21,719 nucleotides of DNA from a virus. The DNA lies in the IMG/VR virus record IMGVR_UViG_3300036978_000109, positions 1 through 21,719 of that record; one strand, written 5' to 3'. Numbering within the stretch: the stretch's first letter is position 1; each line of letters starts with the position of its first letter. This document shows, one piece after another, positions 1-21,621 of this stretch. Both the position numbers and the translations under genes were made by a program. Below the pieces are notes generated by a model that was given only the letters and a program-made list of their open reading frames with translations, ran no database searches and had not been told where the DNA came from.

Positions 1-3000
1 TCTTCATAATCCTCATGCGATTACGAAGTTCGTCATTCTTATCTGCGGCTGCTTCAATGCGGTCAAACAACTGAGCGACTCGCGACCTGAACTTAGATCG
101 CAATTCGTTCCGTGAAGCCACAGCAATTGCCCGCTGCTTCTTCGCCTCTTCACGAACGCCCTCAACGCGGCCCTTGGCAATGCCAGCCGCCTGACCAGAC
201 CTACGGCCCATTTCGCTGGCCAATCCAAGCGGATCAATTTTTGTGACCTTACGGCGCAGCCCACGAACAGCCGACATCATTTCCTTCCGGGCAGCAATAA
301 TCTTGTCCTTGTCTTTGGTTGCAATTGCATCAGCCAACCGACTACGGGCCGTATCAAGAATAGCACGGGCGGCATCGTCAGCGCGTTCCCCTGTAGGCCC
401 GCGCTCTCTGGCTTCCATTATGTTCCCAGTTTTTGATGACCATGTGCCACGGTTATAGATGCTTTTAATCTGATTTTCGCGAAATGGAATCCATTGCCGG
501 GGAATACCACCAAATGATTCTCTGGCTTCAACACTCGTTGCTGCTTCATCACTAAAGGTTTCAATTCCGTCATAACCCTGTCGTTCAAGATCAGCAACGT
601 AAGCGCGAATTTCCTTTTCAGTCAACGATTTAAGTCGTAGTCCAAGTTTGTTTGCTTCAAGCGGACCTAATTTAATTGGATTTTTGATTGACAAAACGAC
701 TGGGTAAACCCGCCCACCTACGCCAACTTCGGGAGGCAAAATTTTGTCAAGATATTCTCTGTATTCGCGTGGATACGACCGCGCTTTTTTCCTATTGTCA
801 GCGCGACGAAGCGATACATCTTGAGTTTCAAAACTGTAAGTTCCGGAAACAAGATCATCAAAAATTTCTACATCACGTTTAGAGTTGACACGCACAACTA
901 CATCGCCTACCGAAACAATAGTTCCAAATTCATTTTCTGGAATATCATCAATAATTGAATGCGTTCGTATTCTTTTTGGAATGGCAACAGGAGCAGAAAT
1001 AATTTTATATCTGCTAGTCAGTTTTTTTTGCCGTTTAACAGATACATAAGCCTCGGAGTATGCACTTGCTTCTTGCGCGTTTTCGGTAAAGAATGACGGG
1101 TTTCTAAAGATGTCTGTGAATGTTCGCCACGTTCCGTGATAGACAACAAGCGGATTGCCTTCGGCGTCTACAACCTTGCTATCGCCAAAGTATTCTTTAA
1201 AGTTTGGATCATCCTTAAATCCAGCAACAACGTCACGGTGTCTGGCCCGCATGATGTCCATGCTTCCAGAGTCAAATCGTTGTGACAATGGAATGACGTT
1301 CCCGGCTTCGTCACGGGTTACTGGATCAGCAGACTTCACTTGTTCAGGGCGAGTGGCTACATAAAACGTCGATGTGTAATCTTCGTTTTTGAGAGTATCA
1401 ATGTTTTGTTGCGAAATTGTTTCAAGATCGCCTTCAAGTATTCCTTCAATACTTAATTCGCCTTCGCGCCATGTCTTATCAAACTGCGTTTTAACAGTTT
1501 CAATCTTGCCGGGATTGAGATACAGATTGAGTTTGTTTTCACCGGACCATCCTGTAGGAGATGCAGTTAGCCAGATGCCCGGACCAGCCTTTCCCTTTTG
1601 AATGTCAAATGACGTAAACGATTCGTCAGTAAAGTGATATACGGGAATGGTGTAACCAGCCGCCGCCGCTGCATCATCCACCATTGTTTGCGCTGTAGCC
1701 ATGTCACCACGCTCAACCGCCGCCATGTAGTCCGCATCTGTCTTTTGGGAGCGGGCCGACAATGGCGCTAATGGTGCAGAGAACGCTGCCGCTTGAGCAT
1801 CAAGATAATTGTTCCATTTATTCTGGAACTCAATGAGCGTATCAATTGCTTTTTCTTTTGTTTTTCCTAGTGGCTGATCAAACCCAAATGACTCTCCATT
1901 TGCATTTTTTTCATCCCATTGGAAATCGGAAGATGAATCCGATTCCATATACCATTGGCCATCATCAGCCTTAAACAGTTGGACAAAGTTAGAAGACTGT
2001 CTATTTTTGCTATTCTGTTGGCTGCGTAAATAAACTTCGTAGAGTTGGCTTCCGTTATATGCAGGGTGAGGCGTAGTAACATTTCCACCGCCATATTTGG
2101 TTACCGTCTGAACAAATCCCTTGATTGGAAATCCAAACTTCAACATTCCCTTAATAGGTTTTAATTTGATTTCGCCGGGGACTACAGGACGCCTTCCTGC
2201 TTGCATAGATTCAACTGGCATTGTTGCAATCTCTTCAGTCAAGCGAACGACATCTGTAAGCATCGACTCAAGTTGAGCCGGAATTCCTAACAAGTTACGA
2301 ATTGCAGTTACAAAGCGCTGGAACATATTTCCACCACGCCCCTTAGATGGCAATTTCGACAACATTGATTGGAATAATGGGTCAGACATAGCCCCCGCCA
2401 AGAACTCGTCCAAATTGCCAAACTCATAAAGACCAGCGCGACTAACCATCGTATCGCCGCTGCCGCGAACATTTACAGCACCCGAACCCTTGTAAGTTGG
2501 CGTGATTGTGAACGGAGCGCCTGAATCAAGAACAACACTTTTAGTCCAAGAAACAAGAAACTTTGCAAACAACGAAGTAGGTTTTTTCGCCCGTAACAAA
2601 TCAACCATTGAATTTGCAGCCCCTTGGTCAAAGGTTCGTGCAAGTTCTTTACCATCAACCGTTACCTGATATTTAACAGTAGGAACATTTTTCAATTCGC
2701 CTGTTTTTGTAATATCGTCGTAAACATATTTTTGTATTGTTGCGGGGATTTCCTGCACAGTTACAAGTGCTGGATCGCCTGTATAAGTAATAAGACTGGC
2801 GCTTTGCTTGCCAGTTGTCATTTTCCTATATTGTTCAGGGTACGCCTTGGCAGATTCAAGGAAACAATCAATAAGTTCTTTGATTGCTGGATCTACATTT
2901 GGGTTAGCAGAGAAATTTTCAAGCGCAGTTATATAAGCCTTTCCAGACTTATTTGAAAACGATGCTTTCTTTTCAAAGTCATACGAGAGCATACTTCCTA

Positions 3001-6000
3001 CGACATACCCCAGCGTCCTCTCTCCTTCTTGTCGCAAGAAATTAGTTTCGTATTGATGGATTTTTGTAGATGTAGCCGCGTGAGTTAACTCATGTGCAAA
3101 GACATATTCTTTATCTTTAGACGCTGCCGCCATATTTTCAGTTGAGCCACCATTGGCATCTGTTGTTTTCCCAAGCAACGATGGCGGAACCTGATTTTCT
3201 TGAAGAGTTATTGACGATCCATAAACTGAGTAATACGCACGAACCTTTGGGTAAACTCGTACAGGTACCCCATCTTTTGGTTTACTAATTCCCCAGACGC
3301 TAGGGCCGTTCATTAAAGCCGCCTGATTGCGGGACTCAAGGATGCTGTCATTAAGCGCCTTGACAAGTTCTGCAAACTTTCCGCCAGCACTTACAACTGC
3401 GTCTACGAATTTTGTACTGGTTGTTTCAAGGATTGGGTTTCCGACTGGGGCGCGGATTCGGGCATAGGTTCCTGCGTTGGCAAGGAAGTCTGCTTTGGAC
3501 TGCTCTCCAAGTCCGCGAGTTCGGCCAGCCCCTCCACCATCGCGTCCATTTGCTCGTCCGACAGACTTACGAGCCACTTGTTGTGCTTTTCTTGATCGAG
3601 ATTCCGCTGTTGAGATGGCCGCATCGAGTTCTTCATTCTTGAATCCTTCTTTCAGAAGCATCTTCCGCATGGCGCCGGAATAGTCCTGACTGGTGACAGT
3701 TAGTTTGACGCCAAGACTCTTGTACAACTCCTGCTCTGGATACCACACAAGCGCCTGAAAGGCTGCATTGGGGACAGGGCTACCGTGCAGAGCGTTGAGT
3801 TTCTCTACCGATCGGCGAACAACATCTCGCAAGATACGGCGCTCTCCGCCCGACTTAGGACTATCACGGGGCTTATCAAACGACTTGATGATGGTCTTGG
3901 CAGCACGGACCATTTCACTTTGTACACGCTTACCTGATTTGTAGGCAGGGCGATTTGCTTTGAAGTCTTTCTCATGGAACTTGAGTACTTCACGCGCAAG
4001 CGCAAGAACCGGGCCATCGCCAAGTTTCTCGTTCTTGGCATCAGCAACCATCTTCTTGCTGAACTCCTTGGAGTAAACGCCGTCACGACCGACTGCGTAC
4101 AGACCAGTACGGAATCGCTTGACCTGTTTGGCAAACGTCTTGGGGTTGAAGGCTGGCAAGGTGCCAGACAATCGGCCTACCAAACGCATGAACCACATAT
4201 CCATAGTGACCGGGTCGTAGTTGCCATCAAGGTTAGACAAGAATCCAAACCCAATCTTAGGTCCAAAGATTGCGCTACCAAGAACCAGTTCGGTCTGTAG
4301 TTCGCCACCAACCTTTAGCCCAGCCTTGTTCAATTGGCCAGCCGTGAATTGAGTGCGCAAGAATCGAATCAGTTTCTCAGGGCCAACCTTGGCAAGCATC
4401 TTGTTTGCAAGTTTGAAATTCTTGCGCTGGGCATCGGCATTCTTGCCCTTGCCCTTTACTTGGAACTGCCCGTACCCAGTCTTCTTCGATACCGTCTTGC
4501 GGTACGCGGCGTACTGCTTCGTTGCGAAGGCTAGGTTGACTTCAACATTCAGCGCTTGTGAGGAGATTGCAACAGCCATCAAGAACGCCAACCGCGCCTT
4601 TGGATCCGTATTCAGTTCTGGGAATTTGATTGCAGCCTGTGCAATGGTGTTACGAATCGTCTTGTCGTACCACTCAATAGCGTCACCCGCTGAACGGATA
4701 GCAGCAAGCGCTTCAACAGCAAGAAGGCGCGAAAGCGCTTCCCTGTCTTCTTCTAGTGTCAAATCAAATTTAGGCAACCCAGACGCAAGCCGCCGTTCAT
4801 GCAACCATTTCACGGTGTCGGGGATTCCGCCAACCTCTTGCGGTACAAATGATTCTTGCTTTGACTTCCCGGTCATAAAGTCAAGCACGGTTGACTTCAC
4901 TTCTTCTTCGGTCAGTTTCAATTCCTTGATTGCGTCCGCAACCAACCTACGGCCACGGTTGGTATCTGATCGCGCCCGCGCCCACAGGCTGGTGTAATCA
5001 GGACCAAACGCCTTTGCCATTTCGTTGCGAAGTTTGTTGCCAATCTGCTGCTCTTGCGGACTAAGAAGCGCTGGCTCCCGCTCCATGCGTTCAGCAATCT
5101 TGTACAGCGGCTTACCTTCAGCCCATTTAGGTTGCGACTTGCGGATGCGCTCCGCCGCCAAATCAACCATCGCCGTAAAGCCGGGCGTTCCTGCCAACGC
5201 AGCGTCCGCAGGGGACAAGCCGCTGACCGTTCCAGCCTTTGGCGCGGTTGGTTCGGGAGGGGCGCTAGGTACCGCCGCAGGCGCCGCTGTGGCGTCCGGA
5301 GCGGCAGGAGCGCCCGGAACTGGACTAGGAGCAGGGGACGGCGCTGGAGCAGCCGTAGCGTCTGCTGCGGGGGCAGCAGTTTCCTGCATCATCGCCACCT
5401 CACGGGCAACACCCTTGGCTTCCTCAATCTGCAACCCTGTTTCAGTTAGCGCAGGCTTGGCGCCGGACCGGGCGGCAATCCGCTTTTCAGCCGATGCCAG
5501 CAACAACGATCGCACCCGCAATGCCGTAGCCGCTTGCCTACCGCGCAGGCCCATTCTGACAATCAACTTGCCCAAGAATCCGGGAGCCTTGCCAGTCCGG
5601 AACAGTTCGCGTATGCCGTCTTCTAGATTCCGCGCTTCGCCTTCTGCCGTCAACAATGACCGCCCAGCCCGTTGAACCAATGTTCCCTCTTGGGTCATGG
5701 GTTGCGTTGCTTGGCCTTCTAGATCGGCCTGCAATGCTGCGTTGGCATTCTGTGCCAATCGATCATCAGCCCGCATGGCATCATTAAAGTATTGCGCCCC
5801 AGCCTCAACAGTCGAGACTTCATCAAATGATGCCCTCAGAGCGTTGTACAACTTGCCATCCGTAGCCTGCACGATGTGCATCACTTCGTGATACGCAAAT
5901 CCCATGACCTTGGCTATGTCACCTTGTTCTAGACCAGAACGAAGGTAAACGGTATTTGGTGTTGCAGGGTGATAGAACGCTGGATCAGAGTTGTCCGCGC

Positions 6001-7582
6001 TATCTGGAGTAAAGAACTCAATGTCGTACCCAAGGTTTCTTAGTTCAGTAGCAGCGGCCTCATCGGCTTCCGTACTAGCAGCGGCTAACGTCTTCTTCTC
6101 ACCCTTTAAGACTGACGCCGCATCCGCTTCAACTGTTGGCGCATTTCGCCCATTGAATGCAGCAATAGTAAACAAGCGAGTGCGGGCAGAAACCAACTCT
6201 GCTGCCAAACTTGCTTGGGCATTGAATGCCGCATCGTAATTGTCTTGCGCTGTTTTGGCCGCTTCTGTAGCAGCGGTAATCTTGTCAGCGTTCTTACTTC
6301 GCTCTGCCTTTGATAACGCCTTCTGGGTTGTTTCCAAATTCAAAGACGCTTTGTTCAGGTTGTCTGCACCAACTTGGCGATCAAGATCGGCTTGTTGGTG
6401 CGTAGCCCGCGCTGTCTCTAGTTCTACAGCCCGCTCGTCAGGAGTCATCGTCCGCAAAGAATCTACAGTTGCTTGTGGCATCCGATCCCAGAATTCCGGG
6501 TCAGAGAAAGCGTTGTTTGAATTTCTGATTGATTCAGAAATACGGTTGCGCATTATCTTTTCGTTGCCGTTTTCAATTATGCCAACAAACGGATGCGCTC
6601 CCGCTCCTCCGAAACCACCATAGAACGCATCAGCAATTGCATCATTTACAGCGTTACCAAGTTTGGGTGATTCTTGTCCCGAAGCCCACTTGGTTGACGA
6701 ATACACAAGCGAACCAAACCCCTCTTCACCCGCTTCTGCTAGGTAGGCCAGTCCCGTACCAGCCGCGAATCGATATGCAGGATTCATATCCTTTATTGCT
6801 TGTTTAGCACTAGCACCCCAAAAAGTCTTAGCAATTTTTACAGCAGCCTTTCCGCCGACCCATTCTGTAAAACTTTCAATGGCGCCACCCTTAACGGCTG
6901 CTCGATATTTATTGAGAGCGTTGTATTTGCCAGACTTATCTACCAATTCATTATTGACAAATGCTTGGTCATATTCGTTTGCACCACCACCAGCACCCTG
7001 TAAGAAGAACAATGGGACCGCAGCGAGATTCAATCCGGGGGTAACAGCAATAGCAATATTGCCAACGCCTTGTGTCATTGCCGACACAATTTTGTCGCTG
7101 GTGGCATCAGAACGCATTGTCGTTCCAGTTCCCATCCCACGGGCAAATCCTTCAACAGCATCAATAGGAACATAATCCTTAGTCATTTCAGAAGTCATTG
7201 CCGTTGCGCCACGGACGGTTGATGTAACCATTCCGGCCAGCGATCTTCCAAATGAATCGCGAACCCCACCTGCTTCAGCCTGTTCGCGGTTCTTGTCAAT
7301 TACATATTGCGACGCCAAATCAGCGCCATCCATATTGAACAACTTCATTATGGACGCAGTTGCGCGTTCTGGGAAATCACCAAAAGAACCCGGCGTCAAT
7401 GCCGACACAACTGTCGCGCCTGCTAATTCACCCGCAGGCTCGTTGGCGGATCCGGGAAGCGCTTCGGCCCGCCTCTCTCGACCAATCTCTCCAACAATAT
7501 CAAGGAATGTGGCTTGCTTTGGAATCTTGCGAACTACATCTAACAGCGGGAACTGGTTGTCTTCTGCCACAGGATTCTCCAT
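1..7582 (-). CDS. Giant multidomain phage polyvalent protein (partial, C-terminus beyond left edge)
   Basis: An open frame of 2527 codons runs from the ATG at 7582 off the left edge with no stop. Seen in order: Gly/Ala-rich, partly hydrophobic N-terminus; coiled coil about 380-475; HEVMH at 565-569 with candidate third zinc ligand E647 or E649; Ala/Pro linker about 734-783; a region about 870-1290 with GPKIG (K1109), VTMD (D1128) and ALVWYPEQELY; HELTH at 1497-1501 with downstream DEFLAGAMSD (E1726); a first ADP-ribosyltransferase-like domain (VYHFTD, H1983, ending PEQVKSADPV); a second (VVYHGT, H2149; YDGIETF, Y2337; ENQIKS); then a charged helical tail. Known: such mixtures typify polyvalent proteins of phages and conjugative elements, thought to be injected with DNA. 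Inferred: a virion protein acting in the new host cell. The start overlaps the upstream stop as TGATG; no strong ribosome site, so translational coupling is likely. Domain identities are by motif only. Confidence 0.93.
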   Translation of the reverse strand, partial: MENPVAEDNQFPLLDVVRKIPKQATFLDIVGEIGRERRAEALPGSANEPAGELAGATVVSALTPGSFGDFPERATASIMKLFNMDGADLASQYVIDKNREQAEAGGVRDSFGRSLAGMVTSTVRGATAMTSEMTKDYVPIDAVEGFARGMGTGTTMRSDATSDKIVSAMTQGVGNIAIAVTPGLNLAAVPLFFLQGAGGGANEYDQAFVNNELVDKSGKYNALNKYRAAVKGGAIESFTEWVGGKAAVKIAKTFWGASAKQAIKDMNPAYRFAAGTGLAYLAEAGEEGFGSLVYSSTKWASGQESPKLGNAVNDAIADAFYGGFGGAGAHPFVGIIENGNEKIMRNRISESIRNSNNAFSDPEFWDRMPQATVDSLRTMTPDERAVELETARATHQQADLDRQVGADNLNKASLNLETTQKALSKAERSKNADKITAATEAAKTAQDNYDAAFNAQASLAAELVSARTRLFTIAAFNGRNAPTVEADAASVLKGEKKTLAAASTEADEAAATELRNLGYDIEFFTPDSADNSDPAFYHPATPNTVYLRSGLEQGDIAKVMGFAYHEVMHIVQATDGKLYNALRASFDEVSTVEAGAQYFNDAMRADDRLAQNANAALQADLEGQATQPMTQEGTLVQRAGRSLLTAEGEARNLEDGIRELFRTGKAPGFLGKLIVRMGLRGRQAATALRVRSLLLASAEKRIAARSGAKPALTETGLQIEEAKGVAREVAMMQETAAPAADATAAPAPSPAPSPVPGAPAAPDATAAPAAVPSAPPEPTAPKAGTVSGLSPADAALAGTPGFTAMVDLAAERIRKSQPKWAEGKPLYKIAERMEREPALLSPQEQQIGNKLRNEMAKAFGPDYTSLWARARSDTNRGRRLVADAIKELKLTEEEVKSTVLDFMTGKSKQESFVPQEVGGIPDTVKWLHERRLASGLPKFDLTLEEDREALSRLLAVEALAAIRSAGDAIEWYDKTIRNTIAQAAIKFPELNTDPKARLAFLMAVAISSQALNVEVNLAFATKQYAAYRKTVSKKTGYGQFQVKGKGKNADAQRKNFKLANKMLAKVGPEKLIRFLRTQFTAGQLNKAGLKVGGELQTELVLGSAIFGPKIGFGFLSNLDGNYDPVTMDMWFMRLVGRLSGTLPAFNPKTFAKQVKRFRTGLYAVGRDGVYSKEFSKKMVADAKNEKLGDGPVLALAREVLKFHEKDFKANRPAYKSGKRVQSEMVRAAKTIIKSFDKPRDSPKSGGERRILRDVVRRSVEKLNALHGSPVPNAAFQALVWYPEQELYKSLGVKLTVTSQDYSGAMRKMLLKEGFKNEELDAAISTAESRSRKAQQVARKSVGRANGRDGGGAGRTRGLGEQSKADFLANAGTYARIRAPVGNPILETTSTKFVDAVVSAGGKFAELVKALNDSILESRNQAALMNGPSVWGISKPKDGVPVRVYPKVRAYYSVYGSSITLQENQVPPSLLGKTTDANGGSTENMAAASKDKEYVFAHELTHAATSTKIHQYETNFLRQEGERTLGYVVGSMLSYDFEKKASFSNKSGKAYITALENFSANPNVDPAIKELIDCFLESAKAYPEQYRKMTTGKQSASLITYTGDPALVTVQEIPATIQKYVYDDITKTGELKNVPTVKYQVTVDGKELARTFDQGAANSMVDLLRAKKPTSLFAKFLVSWTKSVVLDSGAPFTITPTYKGSGAVNVRGSGDTMVSRAGLYEFGNLDEFLAGAMSDPLFQSMLSKLPSKGRGGNMFQRFVTAIRNLLGIPAQLESMLTDVVRLTEEIATMPVESMQAGRRPVVPGEIKLKPIKGMLKFGFPIKGFVQTVTKYGGGNVTTPHPAYNGSQLYEVYLRSQQNSKNRQSSNFVQLFKADDGQWYMESDSSSDFQWDEKNANGESFGFDQPLGKTKEKAIDTLIEFQNKWNNYLDAQAAAFSAPLAPLSARSQKTDADYMAAVERGDMATAQTMVDDAAAAAGYTIPVYHFTDESFTSFDIQKGKAGPGIWLTASPTGWSGENKLNLYLNPGKIETVKTQFDKTWREGELSIEGILEGDLETISQQNIDTLKNEDYTSTFYVATRPEQVKSADPVTRDEAGNVIPLSQRFDSGSMDIMRARHRDVVAGFKDDPNFKEYFGDSKVVDAEGNPLVVYHGTWRTFTDIFRNPSFFTENAQEASAYSEAYVSVKRQKKLTSRYKIISAPVAIPKRIRTHSIIDDIPENEFGTIVSVGDVVVRVNSKRDVEIFDDLVSGTYSFETQDVSLRRADNRKKARSYPREYREYLDKILPPEVGVGGRVYPVVLSIKNPIKLGPLEANKLGLRLKSLTEKEIRAYVADLERQGYDGIETFSDEAATSVEARESFGGIPRQWIPFRENQIKSIYNRGTWSSKTGNIMEARERGPTGERADDAARAILDTARSRLADAIATKDKDKIIAARKEMMSAVRGLRRKVTKIDPLGLASEMGRRSGQAAGIAKGRVEGVREEAKKQRAIAVASRNELRSKFRSRVAQLFDRIEAAADKNDELRNRMRIMK
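5236..5384 (-). other. Ala/Pro-rich low-complexity linker in the giant protein
   Basis: About residues 734-783 of the giant protein are almost only Ala, Pro, Ser, Thr, Asp and Val (for example APAPSPAPSPVPGAPAAPD). It separates the first metalloprotease-like region from the central Lys/Asp region. Such linkers usually join independently folded domains and are exposed to proteases; whether this one is cut is unknown. Confidence 0.8.
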
Positions 7583-9012
7583 CACTTAGTTGAGTATTCG
7601 TCAATGACTCGCGCTGCTTGAATAATAAGTTGCTGTTCTTCGCGGCTGAATCTTCCCATTCGGGCTAACTTGGCTGGATCACTTCCCATCGCCTGAATGC
7701 GCACAAGCGTGTCCCTTGGAGATTCGTTTGCATCTTTCTGCATCAGTTGAATAGCACTACTCAATGTCTCATTGGCGCTGGCATCGGCAGACTTCTGTTG
7801 TTCAGGTGATTTAGGCGCACCAGCAGCGCCATACTTGGCTTCCTGCTGCTGCATTCGCGCTTGGTCAGCCATCTCTTGGCGTTGCAGACTTACAGGAACA
7901 ATACGCTCTGGAGGAGGAGCAATAGTTGAAACGGCGCCTCGCGTGTTATTTGCGATGTCCAATGCCTTGACCATTGCAGACAAGCCAACTTCATCAGTAG
8001 CAAGAACTGGCGACCACCCAAGTCGCTGACCAACCATATTGAATTGGCCCAAGAACTTCTGCACTTCCGCCATGTTGTATTGGCCCTTTAAGTCAGGCGC
8101 TGGCAGTTGTGCGGGAACTGGCAAGCCTGTCATCATTGGCTTTGTCATGGCTTGAAACAAAGTAACCAATGGCAATGGACCAGAATCCTGATCTTGCAAT
8201 GAATCAACCAATGTCATTGTGCTTGGCAATGAATATTGATCTGGCCTACGCCGCATGGCGACCATGTTCTCAATGAGTGGAGCGGCATAGGGCTGATCTT
8301 GATAAGCCTTCATTGATTCGCGGTATGCGGCATTTCCCTGTTGGTATTCATTCTGCTCCATCGTGATTGCTTGTTGTGCGAAAGCCTTGGTAACAGGCTT
8401 TCCGCGCCAAGTAACCATTTCAGCATTAGCCTTGTTCTGTTCGCGCTGAAATTCACCAAGTTGCTTCATGGCCATTTCGGGATCGACTTGATACATGGCT
8501 GCTAGATAGCCACCAATATCCGGATCCTGCGCAGCAGTAACCTTCTTGGCCATATTGTTGAAATACGGAACGAACGCCTTTCGCTTGGCATCTAACTTTC
8601 GTTCTTCTTCCAATTGCTTGCGTGACTGCGAACGATGCTCAATTGCACCCATCCATTGCGGGACGGTCAACTTGATCACTTGTCGCTGGCCGTCCTCATC
8701 AGTAAATGACGCCGCTGGAGTACCGTCTGCCAGCGCACCAAAGTCCATCATCTCTAGACCTTGGAAGTCACCATTCTCAATACCACTCACAGCCCGGCCA
8801 AAACTAGGTGGGCCAGCGTATTGGGGATTTCCCATATACATCGACTTGTCGCGGTCAGCGTATTCGATAGCGCGATTTACAACAGGCGGAAGATCTTCGG
8901 CGCTGATCTTCTGCATTGGGCGCTGCTTGACGCCATTGGCGTAGGTGGGCGGAGGGTTGTCCTGTGAACCATCTAGTGTGTTCACAGCAGGATTTAGATT
9001 CATCGGATCCAT
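7582..9012 (-). CDS. Hypothetical virion-associated protein, 476 aa
   Basis: I do not recognise the family. The protein is soluble-looking, rich in Gln, Met and Ala, with a Pro-rich N-terminus (NPPPTYANG), a charged helical stretch around residues 125-150 (SRKQLEEERKLDAKRKAF) and a Gln/Ala-rich helical region near the C-terminus. There is no signal peptide or membrane segment. The start is supported by TGAGGA about 7 bases upstream and by a TAATG overlap with the preceding stop; its own TGA overlaps the ATG of the giant protein. Lying between a Gly/Ala-rich internal-virion-like protein and a giant multidomain protein, it holds the place of the middle member of the three ejected internal virion proteins of T7-like phages. 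That role is inferred from position and size only; a scaffolding or tail-assembly role is possible. Confidence 0.85.
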   Translation of the reverse strand: MDPMNLNPAVNTLDGSQDNPPPTYANGVKQRPMQKISAEDLPPVVNRAIEYADRDKSMYMGNPQYAGPPSFGRAVSGIENGDFQGLEMMDFGALADGTPAASFTDEDGQRQVIKLTVPQWMGAIEHRSQSRKQLEEERKLDAKRKAFVPYFNNMAKKVTAAQDPDIGGYLAAMYQVDPEMAMKQLGEFQREQNKANAEMVTWRGKPVTKAFAQQAITMEQNEYQQGNAAYRESMKAYQDQPYAAPLIENMVAMRRRPDQYSLPSTMTLVDSLQDQDSGPLPLVTLFQAMTKPMMTGLPVPAQLPAPDLKGQYNMAEVQKFLGQFNMVGQRLGWSPVLATDEVGLSAMVKALDIANNTRGAVSTIAPPPERIVPVSLQRQEMADQARMQQQEAKYGAAGAPKSPEQQKSADASANETLSSAIQLMQKDANESPRDTLVRIQAMGSDPAKLARMGRFSREEQQLIIQAARVIDEYSTK

Positions 9013-10601: not shown

Positions 10602-11423
10602 TTAAATCTCCGTTTCTAATGCGAGGGCAACTCGACCAGATGTTCGATAGTCCACAGTAATTTCAGTTCCAGCAGGAATATCAAGCATGGCAATCATGTC
10701 AACATGATCGTCAATTCCAGTTGCTTGAAACTCTGCGTTTGGTTCGTGCGAGTGATTAGTAAACCGACCAGCCACGCAACGCATCCGATCTCTACGGGCC
10801 GGGGCAATACATTCACCCTTGCATATGTCACGGATTGCCACAACCCCAATCCCATGAATTGCAGATTGCTGCATCACCGTATTGCGGAAGCAGGCGTCTG
10901 TTTCGAGAAGATCGTCAGTACGCCGCATCTCTTGGTCAATGAATCCAAGCGGCAAGCCATACTCACGGACAAATGCGTTGTAATCACTTCGCGCTTTGCT
11001 GTTCCAATCAAACTCAATACCAGTCCGGCGAGTCTGAAGGATGTGCGTTTCAGATGTCATTTCATCTTCGGCGTCTTCGACCGTTTGCGCTTTGGTGGGG
11101 ACAACCGTTGTCCAATAGGTATCTGAGTGCGTGTATCCAACTCGCTTAGATCCCTTGGCGGCAGGCAGAACGTGATACCCAATGAGGCGCCGCATACCAG
11201 TATCCGTAGTCACGCTAATGTCACCAGACACAATGCAGATGTTGTCTAGGTTGGTCAGCGCACCAGTCACCATCGTCCCGGCTGGGACAAAGATAGTGCG
11301 GGCATACATATCTCCGTAGATAAGGCTTGCAGTCTCCACGTTGACCTGTGGAAGCGACAGCATTTGTTTCTCAAGATCCCTGATTTGCTCCACCCTGTTG
11401 GGGCCAATTTCATTATGAGACAT
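10602..11423 (-). CDS. Cupin-like + SET-domain fusion protein (putative lysine methyltransferase), 273 aa
   Basis: Two parts are visible. Residues about 25-115 form a beta-rich region with YARTIFVPAGTMVTGA and NICIVSGDISVTT, resembling a cupin barrel. Residues about 188-262 carry the hallmark SET motifs: GIGVVAIRDICKGE (the GxG S-adenosylmethionine-binding strand), GRFTNHSHEPNAEF (canonical RFxNHSxxPN; N223, H224, S225, P228, N229) and AGTEITVDY (canonical GEELTxDY; Tyr259). SET enzymes transfer methyl groups to lysine side chains. Only about 25 residues separate the first and second motifs, so the domain is very compact, and no post-SET cysteine cluster is seen. The start at 11423 is preferred over one at 11450 because AGAAGGA lies 8 bases upstream and the overlap with the nozzle-like gene falls to 11 bases. 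The substrate is unknown; late-operon position allows a virion or host target. Confidence 0.88.
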   Translation of the reverse strand: MSHNEIGPNRVEQIRDLEKQMLSLPQVNVETASLIYGDMYARTIFVPAGTMVTGALTNLDNICIVSGDISVTTDTGMRRLIGYHVLPAAKGSKRVGYTHSDTYWTTVVPTKAQTVEDAEDEMTSETHILQTRRTGIEFDWNSKARSDYNAFVREYGLPLGFIDQEMRRTDDLLETDACFRNTVMQQSAIHGIGVVAIRDICKGECIAPARRDRMRCVAGRFTNHSHEPNAEFQATGIDDHVDMIAMLDIPAGTEITVDYRTSGRVALALETEI

Positions 11424-13560
11424 CGCGCACCGTCCTTCTTGGTCCAACAACTTGAAGATTTAGACCGACTCGCTCAAACGCAAATGGGTATCCGGACGAA
11501 CGAACGCGAACAAACATCGCATTGTCGCGAACACGGCAGCGCAATCGGTTGTTTGCACCTTCTGCAATATTTCCAATATCGGTAACTGTTGCTGTGCTAA
11601 ATCCAGATGCAGAAACTGAGGCCGTATCTGTGGCAAGAGTTGCCACTATGGCTCCCGTAGAATCAATGTTGGTAAATCGATATTCACCAACACTTGGATC
11701 ATCTGCGTAAGCACCGTTGACTTGTTGCTGCACATACACCGGGAAATCGTCAACTTGAAAACTGATATACCAACGAGTAGCACCGCCAATAGAGCCGCGA
11801 GTCAATTGGAATTGACTTGTAGCGTTCTCAAATACTCGCAGCAGGGGCGATACAAAAGTGTCTTGTGACGTATATAAACCAGTAGCGGATGTTGCGTATG
11901 CGCCATCAACATATATGGTTATTGTCTGAGTTGCGCCACCGCCATCGTAATCGGGCGCCACTTGCTGATCGCTTCCAGCAATATCGCCGGGCAAAGACAA
12001 ATTTGCATTTCCACCATTGGCCGTAATAAACAAAACCGGATTAACCACCAAGGTGTTTATGTTGTCAGCAATGGCTTCTTGCGCTGTTGGTGCAGAAAGA
12101 ATCTGTACGGTTGGATAAGCAGAAATACCTTTTACGTTTGTGTCAGCAAGATAAGTATCAGCGCCAAGTTCAATTTGTACTTCGTTGCAAAAGGCAAGGC
12201 CGGGAGATGATGACACAATGGGACCAATTGATACAGAACTCTGTATTCGCTGTAGTGCAGATTCGTCAATAGTTGGATTGTTGGCCGGGTCGTATCCAGC
12301 AGCAACATAGCCATCAATTCCGACAATTAACGATGAATCAAAGATTCCAAGTTGGCCAGTTGAACTACCAAAGATTGCTACTTGCACCCGGCCATCGTCT
12401 GTCAACATCTGCGCTTGCGAAAAGGCGCCATAGAAATTTGGGTCATACATCTTGAATGGGAAGAACCCATCCGTCTGCTCTGAGTAGAACAAATGGGTGC
12501 TACTTGAAGGCTGATCAATTCTGGTAAGAAAGACCCAAACACCTCTTCGCTCAACGTCATAAGTAATTGATGGGCTGATATCTTCCCACTTCAAATTTGC
12601 AAAGAACGAATCAAGTTTGTCTCGCGATATCAGTTGACCACGATCAACATTAAAGTCGTTGGGAGTAATCCGGTACAGGCCGTCTTGAGACAACAAGAAC
12701 ACGGATTTCTCCGGACCATTGCACCATCCTCTTGGTCCGCAGATACCAACCGTTCTACTCAGTTGTTGAATTGACGCACTTCCAAAGATTGGATCTTGCG
12801 TCAACATCGACATTGATTTCTTGCCAGCAAAGATAATGCTGCCCTGACCAAACGGAATTGAGCAAATAATTTCATCGCCCGGTACGCCGAAGTCACCATT
12901 ATTGCCAGCAATTGCATCCCCGGCGCCTGCTGTTACTACTGACCAAATATCCGGGTCATCAATTTGAGACATGAACCAGACATTCTCAAGTTGCTTAACT
13001 CCACCAAGAACTAAACGTCCACCGTACAAAACAATGTTTGTCGCGGTATAGGTAATTCCGCCAATGACCTTTTTGATATTTACATCAGGACCAGTTGTAG
13101 CAACCGCCCATAATGACCATACTGGCGGGTTGGCAAACAAATTCACCTTGACGTAATTAGACCCATCTACAAAGTAGCAGTACTGACCACGCTGAACAGC
13201 CTCAACGCGGGCAGTCGTATTAAGACAGGCCGCTGCTGAAGATGATGGGCCAAGTACCTGTTGTGGATTTCCACCGGGATCCATGTAATAGATCTTGCCA
13301 GAGTTGGCTACTAACAGCCGATCCTTAATGACTGGCGGATCTCCAGAGAATGCGTTTGTTCTAACGATGCATTGAACTGATCCGCTGGCAAACTTGTATA
13401 AGCGATTGAACCCCGGACGCGTACCCAAGCGCACACGCCTGCGAAACGGATCAGCAGGAATCATGTCAAGAATGTCGTGCGTATACCCCTCTGGCACTCC
13501 ACTATATGGAACGTCAGTAACCCATCCGCGAATAGGGATAATCGCTTGGGTGTATGGCAT
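11413..13560 (-). CDS. Tail nozzle / tail tubular protein B-like structural protein, 715 aa
   Basis: A long beta-rich protein without signal peptide or membrane helix. The N-terminus (PIRGWVTDVPYSGVPEGYTH, then DPFRRRVRLGTRPGFNRLY) resembles the opening of phage tail-nozzle and stabilisation proteins, where a defined entry loop precedes propeller-like blades. Repeated blade-like segments follow: DRLLVANSGKIYYMD, NIVLYGGRLVLGG, GSIIFAGKKSMSMLT, VFLLSQDGLYRIT, GVWVFLTRIDQPSSS. From about residue 450 it becomes a Thr/Ser-rich beta region resembling fibre or cell-wall-contact modules. Known: in podoviruses such a protein forms the distal tail tube below the adaptor. The ATG overlaps the previous stop as TAATG, with AAGG 8 bases upstream. 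A nozzle is the best reading; another propeller-type tail protein is possible. Confidence 0.9.
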   Translation of the reverse strand: MPYTQAIIPIRGWVTDVPYSGVPEGYTHDILDMIPADPFRRRVRLGTRPGFNRLYKFASGSVQCIVRTNAFSGDPPVIKDRLLVANSGKIYYMDPGGNPQQVLGPSSSAAACLNTTARVEAVQRGQYCYFVDGSNYVKVNLFANPPVWSLWAVATTGPDVNIKKVIGGITYTATNIVLYGGRLVLGGVKQLENVWFMSQIDDPDIWSVVTAGAGDAIAGNNGDFGVPGDEIICSIPFGQGSIIFAGKKSMSMLTQDPIFGSASIQQLSRTVGICGPRGWCNGPEKSVFLLSQDGLYRITPNDFNVDRGQLISRDKLDSFFANLKWEDISPSITYDVERRGVWVFLTRIDQPSSSTHLFYSEQTDGFFPFKMYDPNFYGAFSQAQMLTDDGRVQVAIFGSSTGQLGIFDSSLIVGIDGYVAAGYDPANNPTIDESALQRIQSSVSIGPIVSSSPGLAFCNEVQIELGADTYLADTNVKGISAYPTVQILSAPTAQEAIADNINTLVVNPVLFITANGGNANLSLPGDIAGSDQQVAPDYDGGGATQTITIYVDGAYATSATGLYTSQDTFVSPLLRVFENATSQFQLTRGSIGGATRWYISFQVDDFPVYVQQQVNGAYADDPSVGEYRFTNIDSTGAIVATLATDTASVSASGFSTATVTDIGNIAEGANNRLRCRVRDNAMFVRVRSSGYPFAFERVGLNLQVVGPRRTVRDVS

Positions 13561-15023
13561 TAAGAAAGCCTTATGGCAATTACTTCACAATTTGTTTGAA
13601 CAACACCAGTACCACCAGAACCACCACCCCATCTCAAAACATTCACCGTGTTTGCTCCGTTAAATGCATATGTTGGAACAAATCGACAATGTTGCGAATC
13701 AGCGGGTATGCCTGCGGTAGCAGCCCAAACTTCGTTTCTCCAATACCAAGAAAGTCCAGTTGTTCCAGCCGCAGTAAAAGGCGGAACTGATCCAAGGTCA
13801 TATCCACCAAACACTACAAAAGTTTCTCCTGCTTCAACAATTGCCCTACACGTTACTGATGCGGATCCAGTTCCATCAAGTCTTGCGTGGCTAATTGGAA
13901 ACCGAGTAATTACACCAACAGTTAGGGTTGTTACATCAAGATCTAAATTGATGGCCGTACCCCCACTTACGTCAAGTTTGGTCCATATGGTGTTGGCTGT
14001 ACCAAGCGCTGTGAACGCCGAAGGAACTAGGCCAAGCATCGTTCTCGATTGCGCTTGAGTAAGAGCAGATACGTTTGTCGCAGACGCTGTGCCACTTGGA
14101 GTACCAAGGAATGACGGTACGGCAACTTGCGCAAGTTTGGCAACGGTTACTCCGTTGTCTGCAATTGCTGCACCAGCAACCGATCCCGCTGGAACACTAA
14201 TAGTAGTGCCAGCATTAAGAGTCAATGCGCCATTACTTAAAGTAATTCCGCCGCTTGATGTTAAGCCACTTGCACCAGCAGAAAGCCCTGTTGCGGTAAC
14301 AGCGCCAGTAAGAGCAACTCCAGTCGTTGTTGCAGAAATTCTGGTAGTGCCATCAACAGATATGTCAGCAGTCGTTGATGCAGTTGTATTTGCAGGATCT
14401 GCTGCAATTAAAACCGATCCAGTTGAATTACTTGCGCTGATCTGCACATATTCAGCGGTAGTACTTGTGGTGTCCTTCAACCGAATGATTGGAGTGGCGC
14501 CCTGAATATGCAGTTGATCTAAAGGAGCAGACGTTCCAATGCCAACATTGCCAGTAGAACTAATTCGCATGAGTTCATCACCACCAACACTCGTATTTCT
14601 TCCTCTCCAAAATGCAAATGCATCCGTTGCTGCTGGTTGGCCAATAGCCCAATCTTGAATAGTGCTTTGGGTAATTTGAATTTGGCTACCAGTTACTCCT
14701 GCGGTGTTCTGCACTATTTCGACAATTCCGTTTGTCGGACCAAGAACAGCGGTATGGAGTTTTACTTGTGGAGATGCGGTTCCAATGCCTACCCGGTTGT
14801 TGGTCTGGTCAACAGCAAGCGTTGCGGCGGCTAATGTAGAGTTAGTGCCGCTGTACACGGGCGCCTGATACTTCAGCGCCGACCATACGTTTGTTCCATC
14901 ACCAATCTTTAGATTGCGCGTGTCGGTTTCGTAACCAATCTCTCCTGCTGCAAGGATAACGGAGCCAGAAACTGCGTTCCAATTCGCGACCGTGTCTCGT
15001 CGTATCTGAATCTTTGATGCCAC
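13560..15023 (-). CDS. Tail fibre protein with tropism-determinant-like N-terminal domain, 487 aa
   Basis: The N-terminus (KIQIRRDTVANWNAVSGSVI, then AAGEIGYETDTRNLKIGDG) matches the attachment domain seen at the start of many phage fibres and of Bordetella phage major tropism determinant. Next comes a fibre shaft of short beta repeats, including NRVGIGTASPQVKLH and GNVGIGTSAPLDQLHI, then low-complexity Thr/Ala/Gly repeats at about 195-310. A compact C-terminal region of about 140 residues with WYWRNEVWAATAGI and a Gly-rich loop (LRWGGGSGGTG) may be the receptor-binding head. The start is GTG at 15023 with GGAG 7 bases upstream. No chaperone or DGR repeat is visible. It lies immediately upstream of the nozzle-like gene, joined by TAATG, and is one of two fibre-like proteins in the window. 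Confidence 0.9.
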   Translation of the reverse strand: MASKIQIRRDTVANWNAVSGSVILAAGEIGYETDTRNLKIGDGTNVWSALKYQAPVYSGTNSTLAAATLAVDQTNNRVGIGTASPQVKLHTAVLGPTNGIVEIVQNTAGVTGSQIQITQSTIQDWAIGQPAATDAFAFWRGRNTSVGGDELMRISSTGNVGIGTSAPLDQLHIQGATPIIRLKDTTSTTAEYVQISASNSTGSVLIAADPANTTASTTADISVDGTTRISATTTGVALTGAVTATGLSAGASGLTSSGGITLSNGALTLNAGTTISVPAGSVAGAAIADNGVTVAKLAQVAVPSFLGTPSGTASATNVSALTQAQSRTMLGLVPSAFTALGTANTIWTKLDVSGGTAINLDLDVTTLTVGVITRFPISHARLDGTGSASVTCRAIVEAGETFVVFGGYDLGSVPPFTAAGTTGLSWYWRNEVWAATAGIPADSQHCRFVPTYAFNGANTVNVLRWGGGSGGTGVVQTNCEVIAIRLS

Positions 15024-20846: not shown

Positions 20847-21587
20847 TTAGTTTGGATTTTGGACGTAGCCGTAGTCAGGCCTATTCCAATTCACAGAACT
20901 TGGCGAACGAGAAGGACGAATGCGGCCAAGATCACGCTGTAACAACCCGTCCTTGGTGCTAGCGGTGGCAAGGATTGGACCCATGTCAATCTCTGTTAGG
21001 CGTCCCGTCAAGCCTTCGTCTTCATACGCCTGCGCGAACGCACGACAATACGCGATAAACAACGCATCGCAGTACTTAGGGATCTGAATCTCCCATGAGT
21101 CAGGAGCATCGTCAGCAATGTAGACCCAGTTTGCACGGTATCGAACCGCAATGGCATCGGTAACATTAGCGGTTGGTGTTGGGTAGACATCAAGACGTAC
21201 AGGTGGCAGGGCAACGCCATCTGCTGGCGCCGACCGGGTGAACACCGCGTGTGTCACGCCGGGGCCAGTCATCGTCAGGCCCATCTGGCGCAATTGCTCC
21301 ATATGGTCTGGAGTAACCATCTCAACGAGGTATCCAAGCGTCTGACGAGAAATGATTGACAACAACTCTTCAACATCATCAGGCAAAGCAATATAAGACT
21401 GGTTTGCAACCATGTTCAAATACTTGCTTGTCCGCTCCCGGAATCGCCAAGGCCGACACATGAGATACTGACCAGCCTGATTTACGATCTCAGCCAGTCG
21501 ATGGTTGCGAGTCTGACCGGGAGCAAGTGATGGGTATCCACCAACTGCAAGAACGGCGTGATTCTTTGCTTCAGCGAATGTAGGCAT
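20847..21587 (-). CDS. Head-tail adaptor / tail tubular protein A-like, 246 aa
   Basis: The N-terminal half is helical (PTFAEAKNHAVLAVGGYPSL, and HRLAEIVNQAGQYLMCRPW), followed by NQSYIALPDDVEELLSI, the typical 'Tyr-x-Ala-Leu-Pro-x-Asp' strand of podovirus adaptor proteins. Further on are LDVYPTPTANVTDAIAVRYR, with the conserved YPTP loop, and a C-terminal helical segment IPKYCDALFIAYCRAFAQAY. Known: such proteins form the ring between portal and tail nozzle. A start at 21587 is chosen because the longer reading from TTG at 21617 would place the start within a strong hairpin. No Shine-Dalgarno sequence lies between the hairpin and the ATG, which may lower translation. Confidence 0.85.
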   Translation of the reverse strand: MPTFAEAKNHAVLAVGGYPSLAPGQTRNHRLAEIVNQAGQYLMCRPWRFRERTSKYLNMVANQSYIALPDDVEELLSIISRQTLGYLVEMVTPDHMEQLRQMGLTMTGPGVTHAVFTRSAPADGVALPPVRLDVYPTPTANVTDAIAVRYRANWVYIADDAPDSWEIQIPKYCDALFIAYCRAFAQAYEDEGLTGRLTEIDMGPILATASTKDGLLQRDLGRIRPSRSPSSVNWNRPDYGYVQNPN

Positions 21588-21593
21588 AGAAGT

Positions 21594-21621
21594 CCGCTTG
21601 GGGGGTTTCCCCCCCAAGCGG
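21594..21621 (-). promoter_or_regulatory. Perfect 12-bp stem with GAAA tetraloop before the adaptor gene
   Basis: On the minus strand the arms CCGCTTGGGGGG and CCCCCCAAGCGG pair perfectly around GAAA, a GNRA-type tetraloop. The structure lies between the stop of the right-edge gene (TAA at 21639-21641) and the adaptor-like ATG at 21587, 6 bases before that ATG. There is no T-run after the stem, so it is not a classic intrinsic terminator. It occupies the space where a Shine-Dalgarno sequence would be and may stabilise the upstream mRNA end or lower adaptor translation. Transcription pausing is also possible. Confidence 0.8.

Follow-up and report, generated by a model that had tools for sequence, protein, structure and literature searches.

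A giant polyvalent-type phage protein with zincin-like and ART domains and a candidate Ogg-like DNA glycosylase domain

The giant frame and its surroundings

The window analyzed here is a whole viral contig of 21,719 bp from a freshwater phage, with all of its large genes on the minus strand (Table 1). The last of these is a giant frame that starts with GTG (7585) or ATG (7582), overlaps the stop codon of the upstream ORF and exits at the start of the contig. The initial annotation had described an uninterrupted frame of at least 2527 residues without naming its strand, and this was borne out. When residues are numbered from the GTG codon (V1), all of the motifs listed there are found, at positions that differ by one to three residues: HEVMH at 566, K1110, D1129, HELTH at 1498, VYHFTD at 1982 and VVYHGT at 2147. 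The order of domains, as read from the sequence, appears to be an N-terminal region, a first zincin-like region, an Ogg-like DUF7178 domain, a second zincin-like region, two ARTs, of which the first is degenerate and the second intact, and finally a helical tail. The N-terminal region had no match in PDB. Where the frame is complete in a relative, its length is mostly about 1,600-3,900 aa, and in relatives the charged C-terminal stretch extends several hundred residues further. An assembly artefact as the source of the frame was ruled out by the homologous giants in more than 70 contigs and in the isolate DC33.

Table 1. Features of the window (residues refer to the giant frame, V1 = GTG)
Feature	Coordinates (nt)	Strand	Remarks
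Giant polyvalent protein frame	2..7585	minus	at least 2528 aa, stop-free; C-terminus lost at contig end
N-terminal region, residues 1-469	6179..7585	minus	hydrophobic stretch 177-195; ~49% identity with sister phages
Zincin-1, residues about 500-715	5441..6088	minus	HEVMH 566-570 (nt 5876-5890)
DUF7178 / Ogg-like HhH-GPD glycosylase domain (predicted), residues 871-1350	3536..4975	minus	profile homology
K1110, predicted Schiff-base lysine (FGPKIG)	4256..4258	minus	aligns with DUF7178 K122 and, through it, the Ogg lysine region
D1129, predicted catalytic aspartate (VTMDMW)	4199..4201	minus	aligns with the Ogg aspartate via DUF7178 D140
Zincin-2, residues about 1390-1800	2186..3418	minus	HELTH 1498-1502 (nt 3080-3094)
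ART1, residues about 1977-2095	1301..1657	minus	ART-PolyVal; H1984 and domain end kept
ART2, residues about 2140-2385	440..1168	minus	H (VYHGT), Y (ASAYSE) and D (GYDGIE) present
Charged C-terminal stretch, probably helical	2..373	minus	lost at contig end
Upstream ORF, 476 aa	7582..9012	minus	overlaps giant gene; kept in sister phages, 48-61% in the closest
Two ORFs, 192 and 331 aa	9012..10601	minus	same block; 53% and 68% identity with L139
715-aa ORF, tail/virion block	11413..13560	minus	upstream of the giant gene also in L004-L006 (30-36%)
Head-tail adaptor, SU10 adaptor family	20847..21617	minus	PF24175, E=1.3e-10; upstream end of structural block

The SU10 adaptor and the tail genes of the window place the giant gene in a phage structural context. 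The 476-aa ORF directly upstream of it, which matched nothing in Pfam or PHROGs and nothing credible in PDB, is a candidate internal virion protein, and the 715-aa ORF had no confident match to any family. Two further ORFs of the minus strand lie in this region. One of them (10602-11450; 282 aa; 73% identity in L139) combines an N-terminal part that matches PHROG tail-fibre families with a SET domain of the protein methyltransferase-like type at its C-terminus (E=1.9e-10). The other (13560-15023) is tail-fibre-like, and its N-terminus carries an Mtd_N domain (E=1e-15).

The complete genome of a relative, L081, carries terminase, head-to-tail connector and major capsid genes, and in it the giant gene is preceded by those of tail tubular protein A, a stabilization protein and a lysozyme. 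In Limnohabitans phage DC33, which infects Limnohabitans sp. DCL3 and has a 32-nm tail (PMC12195039), the large ORFs, whose gene names are not annotated, follow an order resembling that of L081. One DC33 protein, XLZ15523.1, with a length of 3,125 aa, contains ART, GPKIG...TMDRW (glycosylase) and HETAH in a single chain.

ART and zincin-like domains

The initial annotation had assigned two ADP-ribosyltransferase (ART)-like domains to the frame and proposed a Pfam profile search as a check. This search revealed matches to ART-PolyVal (PF18760) in three stretches of the frame, over the curated cut-off (E=2e-14; 54.8 bits versus 31.2). According to the main text of the 2017 survey of polyvalent proteins (PMC5512222), the active site of this family is formed by H, Y and D. 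All three are present in ART2, where they were placed by eye from the pattern; the ART alignment is noisy because of insertions. In ART1 the alignment located only the H and neither the Y nor the D position, and owing to the loss of these two residues we consider this copy probably degenerate. The two-domain assignment therefore holds at the level of the Pfam match, with the H-Y-D set present in ART2 and incomplete in ART1.

The giant frame contains two HExxH motifs, versus 0.007 expected for a protein of its composition. Of the 76 related frames, 67 contain HExxH, with 69 occurrences in all versus 0-7 for ten permuted or altered motifs, which rules out a chance origin. The motif is present in 48 of the 49 complete glycosylase-bearing giants, and lies upstream of the glycosylase domain in 45 frames and downstream of it in 24.

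Zincin-1 matches the PHROG_87 metallo-protease family (E=1e-3) and is 50-54% identical to its counterparts in sister phages, with HExxH intact in L142, L143, L144 and L158. The AF2 model of the L158 homologue shows one helix followed by three strands and then the helix that bears HExxH (core pLDDT about 82-94), i.e. the core described for polyvalent zincin domains in the main text of PMC5512222. Zincin-2 found no relatives when searched alone in IMG/VR, and those analyzed were obtained via the swapped-module phages described below. Two of them, L144 and L158 (34-36% identity), keep HExxH, the AATS that follows it and the Glu of FGNLxEF (three sequences in all, with the window), and E1727 of FGNLDEFLA is a candidate third ligand. 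The C-terminal flank of zincin-2 matches PDB entry 9sfn_G, 'Internal virion protein' (E=0.005). The two zinc-protease-like domains proposed earlier are thus supported by the conserved HExxH, by the HExxH...E of the two zincin-2 relatives and by the zincin-like core of the zincin-1 homologue, structure prediction having been suggested as the check on this fold.

In L145, L147, L154 and L150, zincin-1 reads EExxH (first His replaced by Glu), with the remainder of the region conserved. As several relatives share this change, the peptidase activity of zincin-1 may be dispensable.

The candidate Ogg-like domain and its relatives

No other part of the giant frame is as widely shared as residues 871-1350, which have homologues at 76 viral loci, of which 59 were aligned. 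K1110 and D1129 are invariant in all 59, at identities down to 35%, within the context FGPK[IV]G...PVTMDMWFMR. The copy in the window gave no convincing match in Pfam, PHROGs or PDB: it falls below the Pfam cut-off for DUF7178 (PF23802), and PF00730 (HhH-GPD) was directly matched neither in the window nor in five related viral records. Its relatives weakly match DUF7178 and phrog_3842, five of the 59 family members hitting PF23802 directly (best E=2.4e-4). Comparison of the family of the window's domain (A1) with a 20-sequence DUF7178 profile by hhalign gave P=96.6% and E=6e-10, and comparison with a wider DUF7178 set gave E=5e-13, K and D being aligned in both cases. When the DUF7178 profile was in turn compared with all PDB sequences, the three best matches were versions of 8-oxoguanine DNA glycosylase/AP lyase (E=0.003, and 0.003-0.005 over the DUF7178 profiles used), with the regions of the catalytic K and D aligned and with 3fhf, 3knt and 3n0u lower in the list. 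The K-D spacing of 19 in the window's domain equals that of the K249-D268 pair of human OGG1, as cited in PMC13160076.

This chain of homology, leading from the family to DUF7178 and from there to Ogg, supports the assignment of residues 871-1350 as a divergent DUF7178 domain and a putative Ogg-like glycosylase. Together with the weak similarity in fold seen for a related domain (see below), it also sustains the DNA-glycosylase-like region of the initial annotation. Like the Ogg-type enzymes (9o00, 3fhf, 3knt, 3n0u), the domain has K and D in the same motif, but its sequence link to them runs only via DUF7178 (E=0.003) and it is embedded in a giant virion-type protein. With DUF7178 and phrog_3842 it shares the WY, S-P/Q, N, G-K...F-N...T-D and Q-A-x-W motifs as well as the invariant K and D; however, known members are stand-alone proteins of ~200 aa or short modules, whereas the domain of the window is ~480 aa long, contains insertions and lies below the threshold.

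A direct profile test against bacterial EndoIII/MutY/AlkA-type enzymes paired up the SQ motif without reaching significance (P=0.04), and an ungapped motif-block scan for HhH-GPD stayed within the null. Phrog_3842 was absent from 185 genomes of one bacterial class. A match to the K-D region in a Vibrio phage was antisense to an annotated gene where inspected, and this group of matches (E 2-8) was discarded.

AF2 modelled the window's domain confidently (pLDDT 87), and a Foldseek search of PDB with this model matched no solved structure. With the L158 model, which comprises zincin-1 and a compact DUF7178 module, hOGG1 came first, albeit weakly (E=0.31, prob 0.63), and the top 50 included further OGG1 entries, AGOG and zinc metalloproteases, all with weak E-values. 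The structural evidence is mixed, and we treat an HhH-GPD fold of the glycosylase domain as likely rather than established.

One of the weakly matching relatives led us to the compact, 198-aa stand-alone protein of Tunturiibacter phage Tunturi_3, which matches DUF7178 with E=1e-39, and to 118 further phage records. Several of these carry the depositor labels glycosylase, DNA glycosylase or N-glycosylase/DNA lyase (annotation only), and K and D do not vary among the compact and swapped relatives either. The Tunturi_3 protein itself (L122:1180-1776) is annotated 'portal protein', probably a mis-annotation.

The swapped relatives occur in sister phages (L139/L142, L143, L144 and L158), where a distant DUF7178 subfamily (E=1e-13 in L139) directly follows zincin-1. 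The flanks of this module are 50-60% identical to those in the window (upstream gene about 54-61%, N-terminal region about 49%, zincin-1 about 51%). There is thus an apparent like-for-like swap of DUF7178 domains in one slot, the simplest reading of which would be cassette exchange under selection for DUF7178 activity at that position; that two distant subfamilies occupy one conserved slot suggests that the activity itself is selected. What L004 and L005 have in common with the window is instead its glycosylase (60%) and its ART segments (66-84%), and hardly the N-terminus.

A Pfam search of 15 complete giants of the glycosylase family found LPD38 in 11, ART-PolyVal in eight, LPD22 in three and a zeta toxin domain in two, with Acb1, GNAT and RelA/SpoT once each. 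The presence of LPD38, ART-PolyVal and other polyvalent domains in relatives fits the view of the initial annotation that the frame encodes a polyvalent protein. In the giant of L012, an anti-CBASS Acb1 domain (residues 1375-1515; E=1e-26) is fused directly upstream of the glycosylase domain. Another giant frame, of 3606 aa, which is present both in a bacterial genome and in a viral contig (L115/L117), carries ART and DUF7178, the latter preceded by a zincin-like stretch, HETVGH (HExxxH type), read by eye. A 2,039-aa protein with a DUF7178 domain is encoded by Virus Rctr197k (L138, L171; KX853510, 146011-152130), a 197-kb virus from an enrichment culture.

Delivery, processing and possible targets

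ART, zincin-like and glycosylase-like domains, disparate as they are, are combined in one polypeptide, as is characteristic of polyvalent proteins. Like the proteins described in the main text of PMC5512222, this one is a phage giant built of several domains, ART-PolyVal and zincin-like ones among them, and its relatives carry LPD38, LPD22 and other polyvalent domains. The explanation that we favour, and consider probable, is that of a polyvalent protein which is packaged, ejected and cut by its zincins, with ART2 and the glycosylase as effectors. The giant protein would probably be made late, packaged with the internal virion proteins and ejected with the DNA; we infer packaging and ejection because the giant gene directly follows genes of internal-virion type, and gene order in complete short-tailed phage genomes suggests, in line with the initial annotation, that the protein is probably injected with the phage DNA. 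The zincins would cleave the giant chain, in the head or after entry, and so free the effectors. ART2, to judge from its family, would modify host proteins, and the glycosylase, given its K and D, would remove a damaged or modified base by means of K1110 and D1129 and then cut the strand at the abasic site. The target that we slightly and tentatively favour is the incoming DNA of the phage itself, bearing lesions from sunlit water or base marks set by host defence; host DNA is a possible but somewhat doubtful target, and another substrate, or a DNA-binding role of a catalytically dead domain, is unlikely.

The zincins may alternatively be effectors that cut host proteins, and do not process the giant chain, which we regard as a possible, though not the expected, function. 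Their sequence and their position relative to the glycosylase differ between relatives, as those of effectors do, and PMC5512222, in its main text, leaves both roles open; but the near-constant HExxH fits a role in maturation, and the same text describes P1 DdrB as processed before packaging.

According to another view, the glycosylase is an early weapon that excises bases of the host chromosome and nicks it by its lyase activity, so that host replication stalls and the phage gains nucleotides. Strand nicking is predicted by the invariant lysine, and the companions of the domain (ART, zeta toxin, Acb1) are effectors aimed at the host or at host defence. However, Ogg enzymes are lesion-specific, compact DUF7178 proteins are common in phages and bear no signs of toxins, and host base-excision repair would counter such an attack; we consider this role rather unlikely.

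That the domain retains only its fold, and serves the ejection apparatus by binding DNA or as a structural component, is in keeping with the large insertions, which make the domain far longer than compact DUF7178, and with the lack of a match in the direct fold search with the window's domain. The invariance of K and D across the family and its compact and swapped relatives argues against such a role, and the replacement by a distant DUF7178 would be harder to explain without conserved chemistry; we therefore consider it improbable. Least probable of all is a late protein that acts in the cell and is absent from virions: the window covers only part of the genome, but the giant gene keeps its place in the tail/internal-virion block, the sequence flanking zincin-2 matches 9sfn_G, a solved structure labelled 'Internal virion protein', and the N4 virion RNA polymerase is a precedent for a giant that is packaged and ejected (PMC12633501).

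The N4 polymerase resembles the polyvalent protein proposed here in being ejected, in its size (about 3,500 residues) and in its HExxH domain, but carries RNA polymerase in place of glycosylase and ART (PMC12633501). Base excision in the conflict between phage and host is also known from the anti-phage glycosylases Brig1, Brig2 and Brig3 (PMC13160076), which differ in being host-encoded and in acting on modified phage DNA; Brig3 belongs to the uracil-DNA glycosylase superfamily. By analogy, one may speculate that short-tailed phages deliver in their virions a glycosylase/AP lyase, fused to ART and freed by zincins, as an early effector that excises host-made or host-specific bases, and that it would be the phage-side mirror of Brig-type defence, a combined reading that we put forward as conjecture.

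The main text of PMC5512222 mentions neither 'glycosylase' nor 'base excision', and our full-text literature search, which covered the main texts of papers open without subscription, returned none that joins a polyvalent protein with a DNA glycosylase. The earlier suggestion that the set of domains may be undescribed is therefore retained, within these sources, for the glycosylase, but not for polyvalent proteins, ARTs and zincins as such, which are known. If the protein is injected, as we infer, the domain adds a DNA-repair-type enzyme to the activities present in polyvalent proteins, and DUF7178, a Pfam family of unknown function, acquires a testable Ogg-like role. Packaging, processing and activity can be tested in DC33, since this cultured phage encodes ART, glycosylase and HExxH in one protein. 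The DC33 record (PQ492659.1) is filed under Inoviridae despite the icosahedral head, 32-nm tail and terminase gene of this phage.
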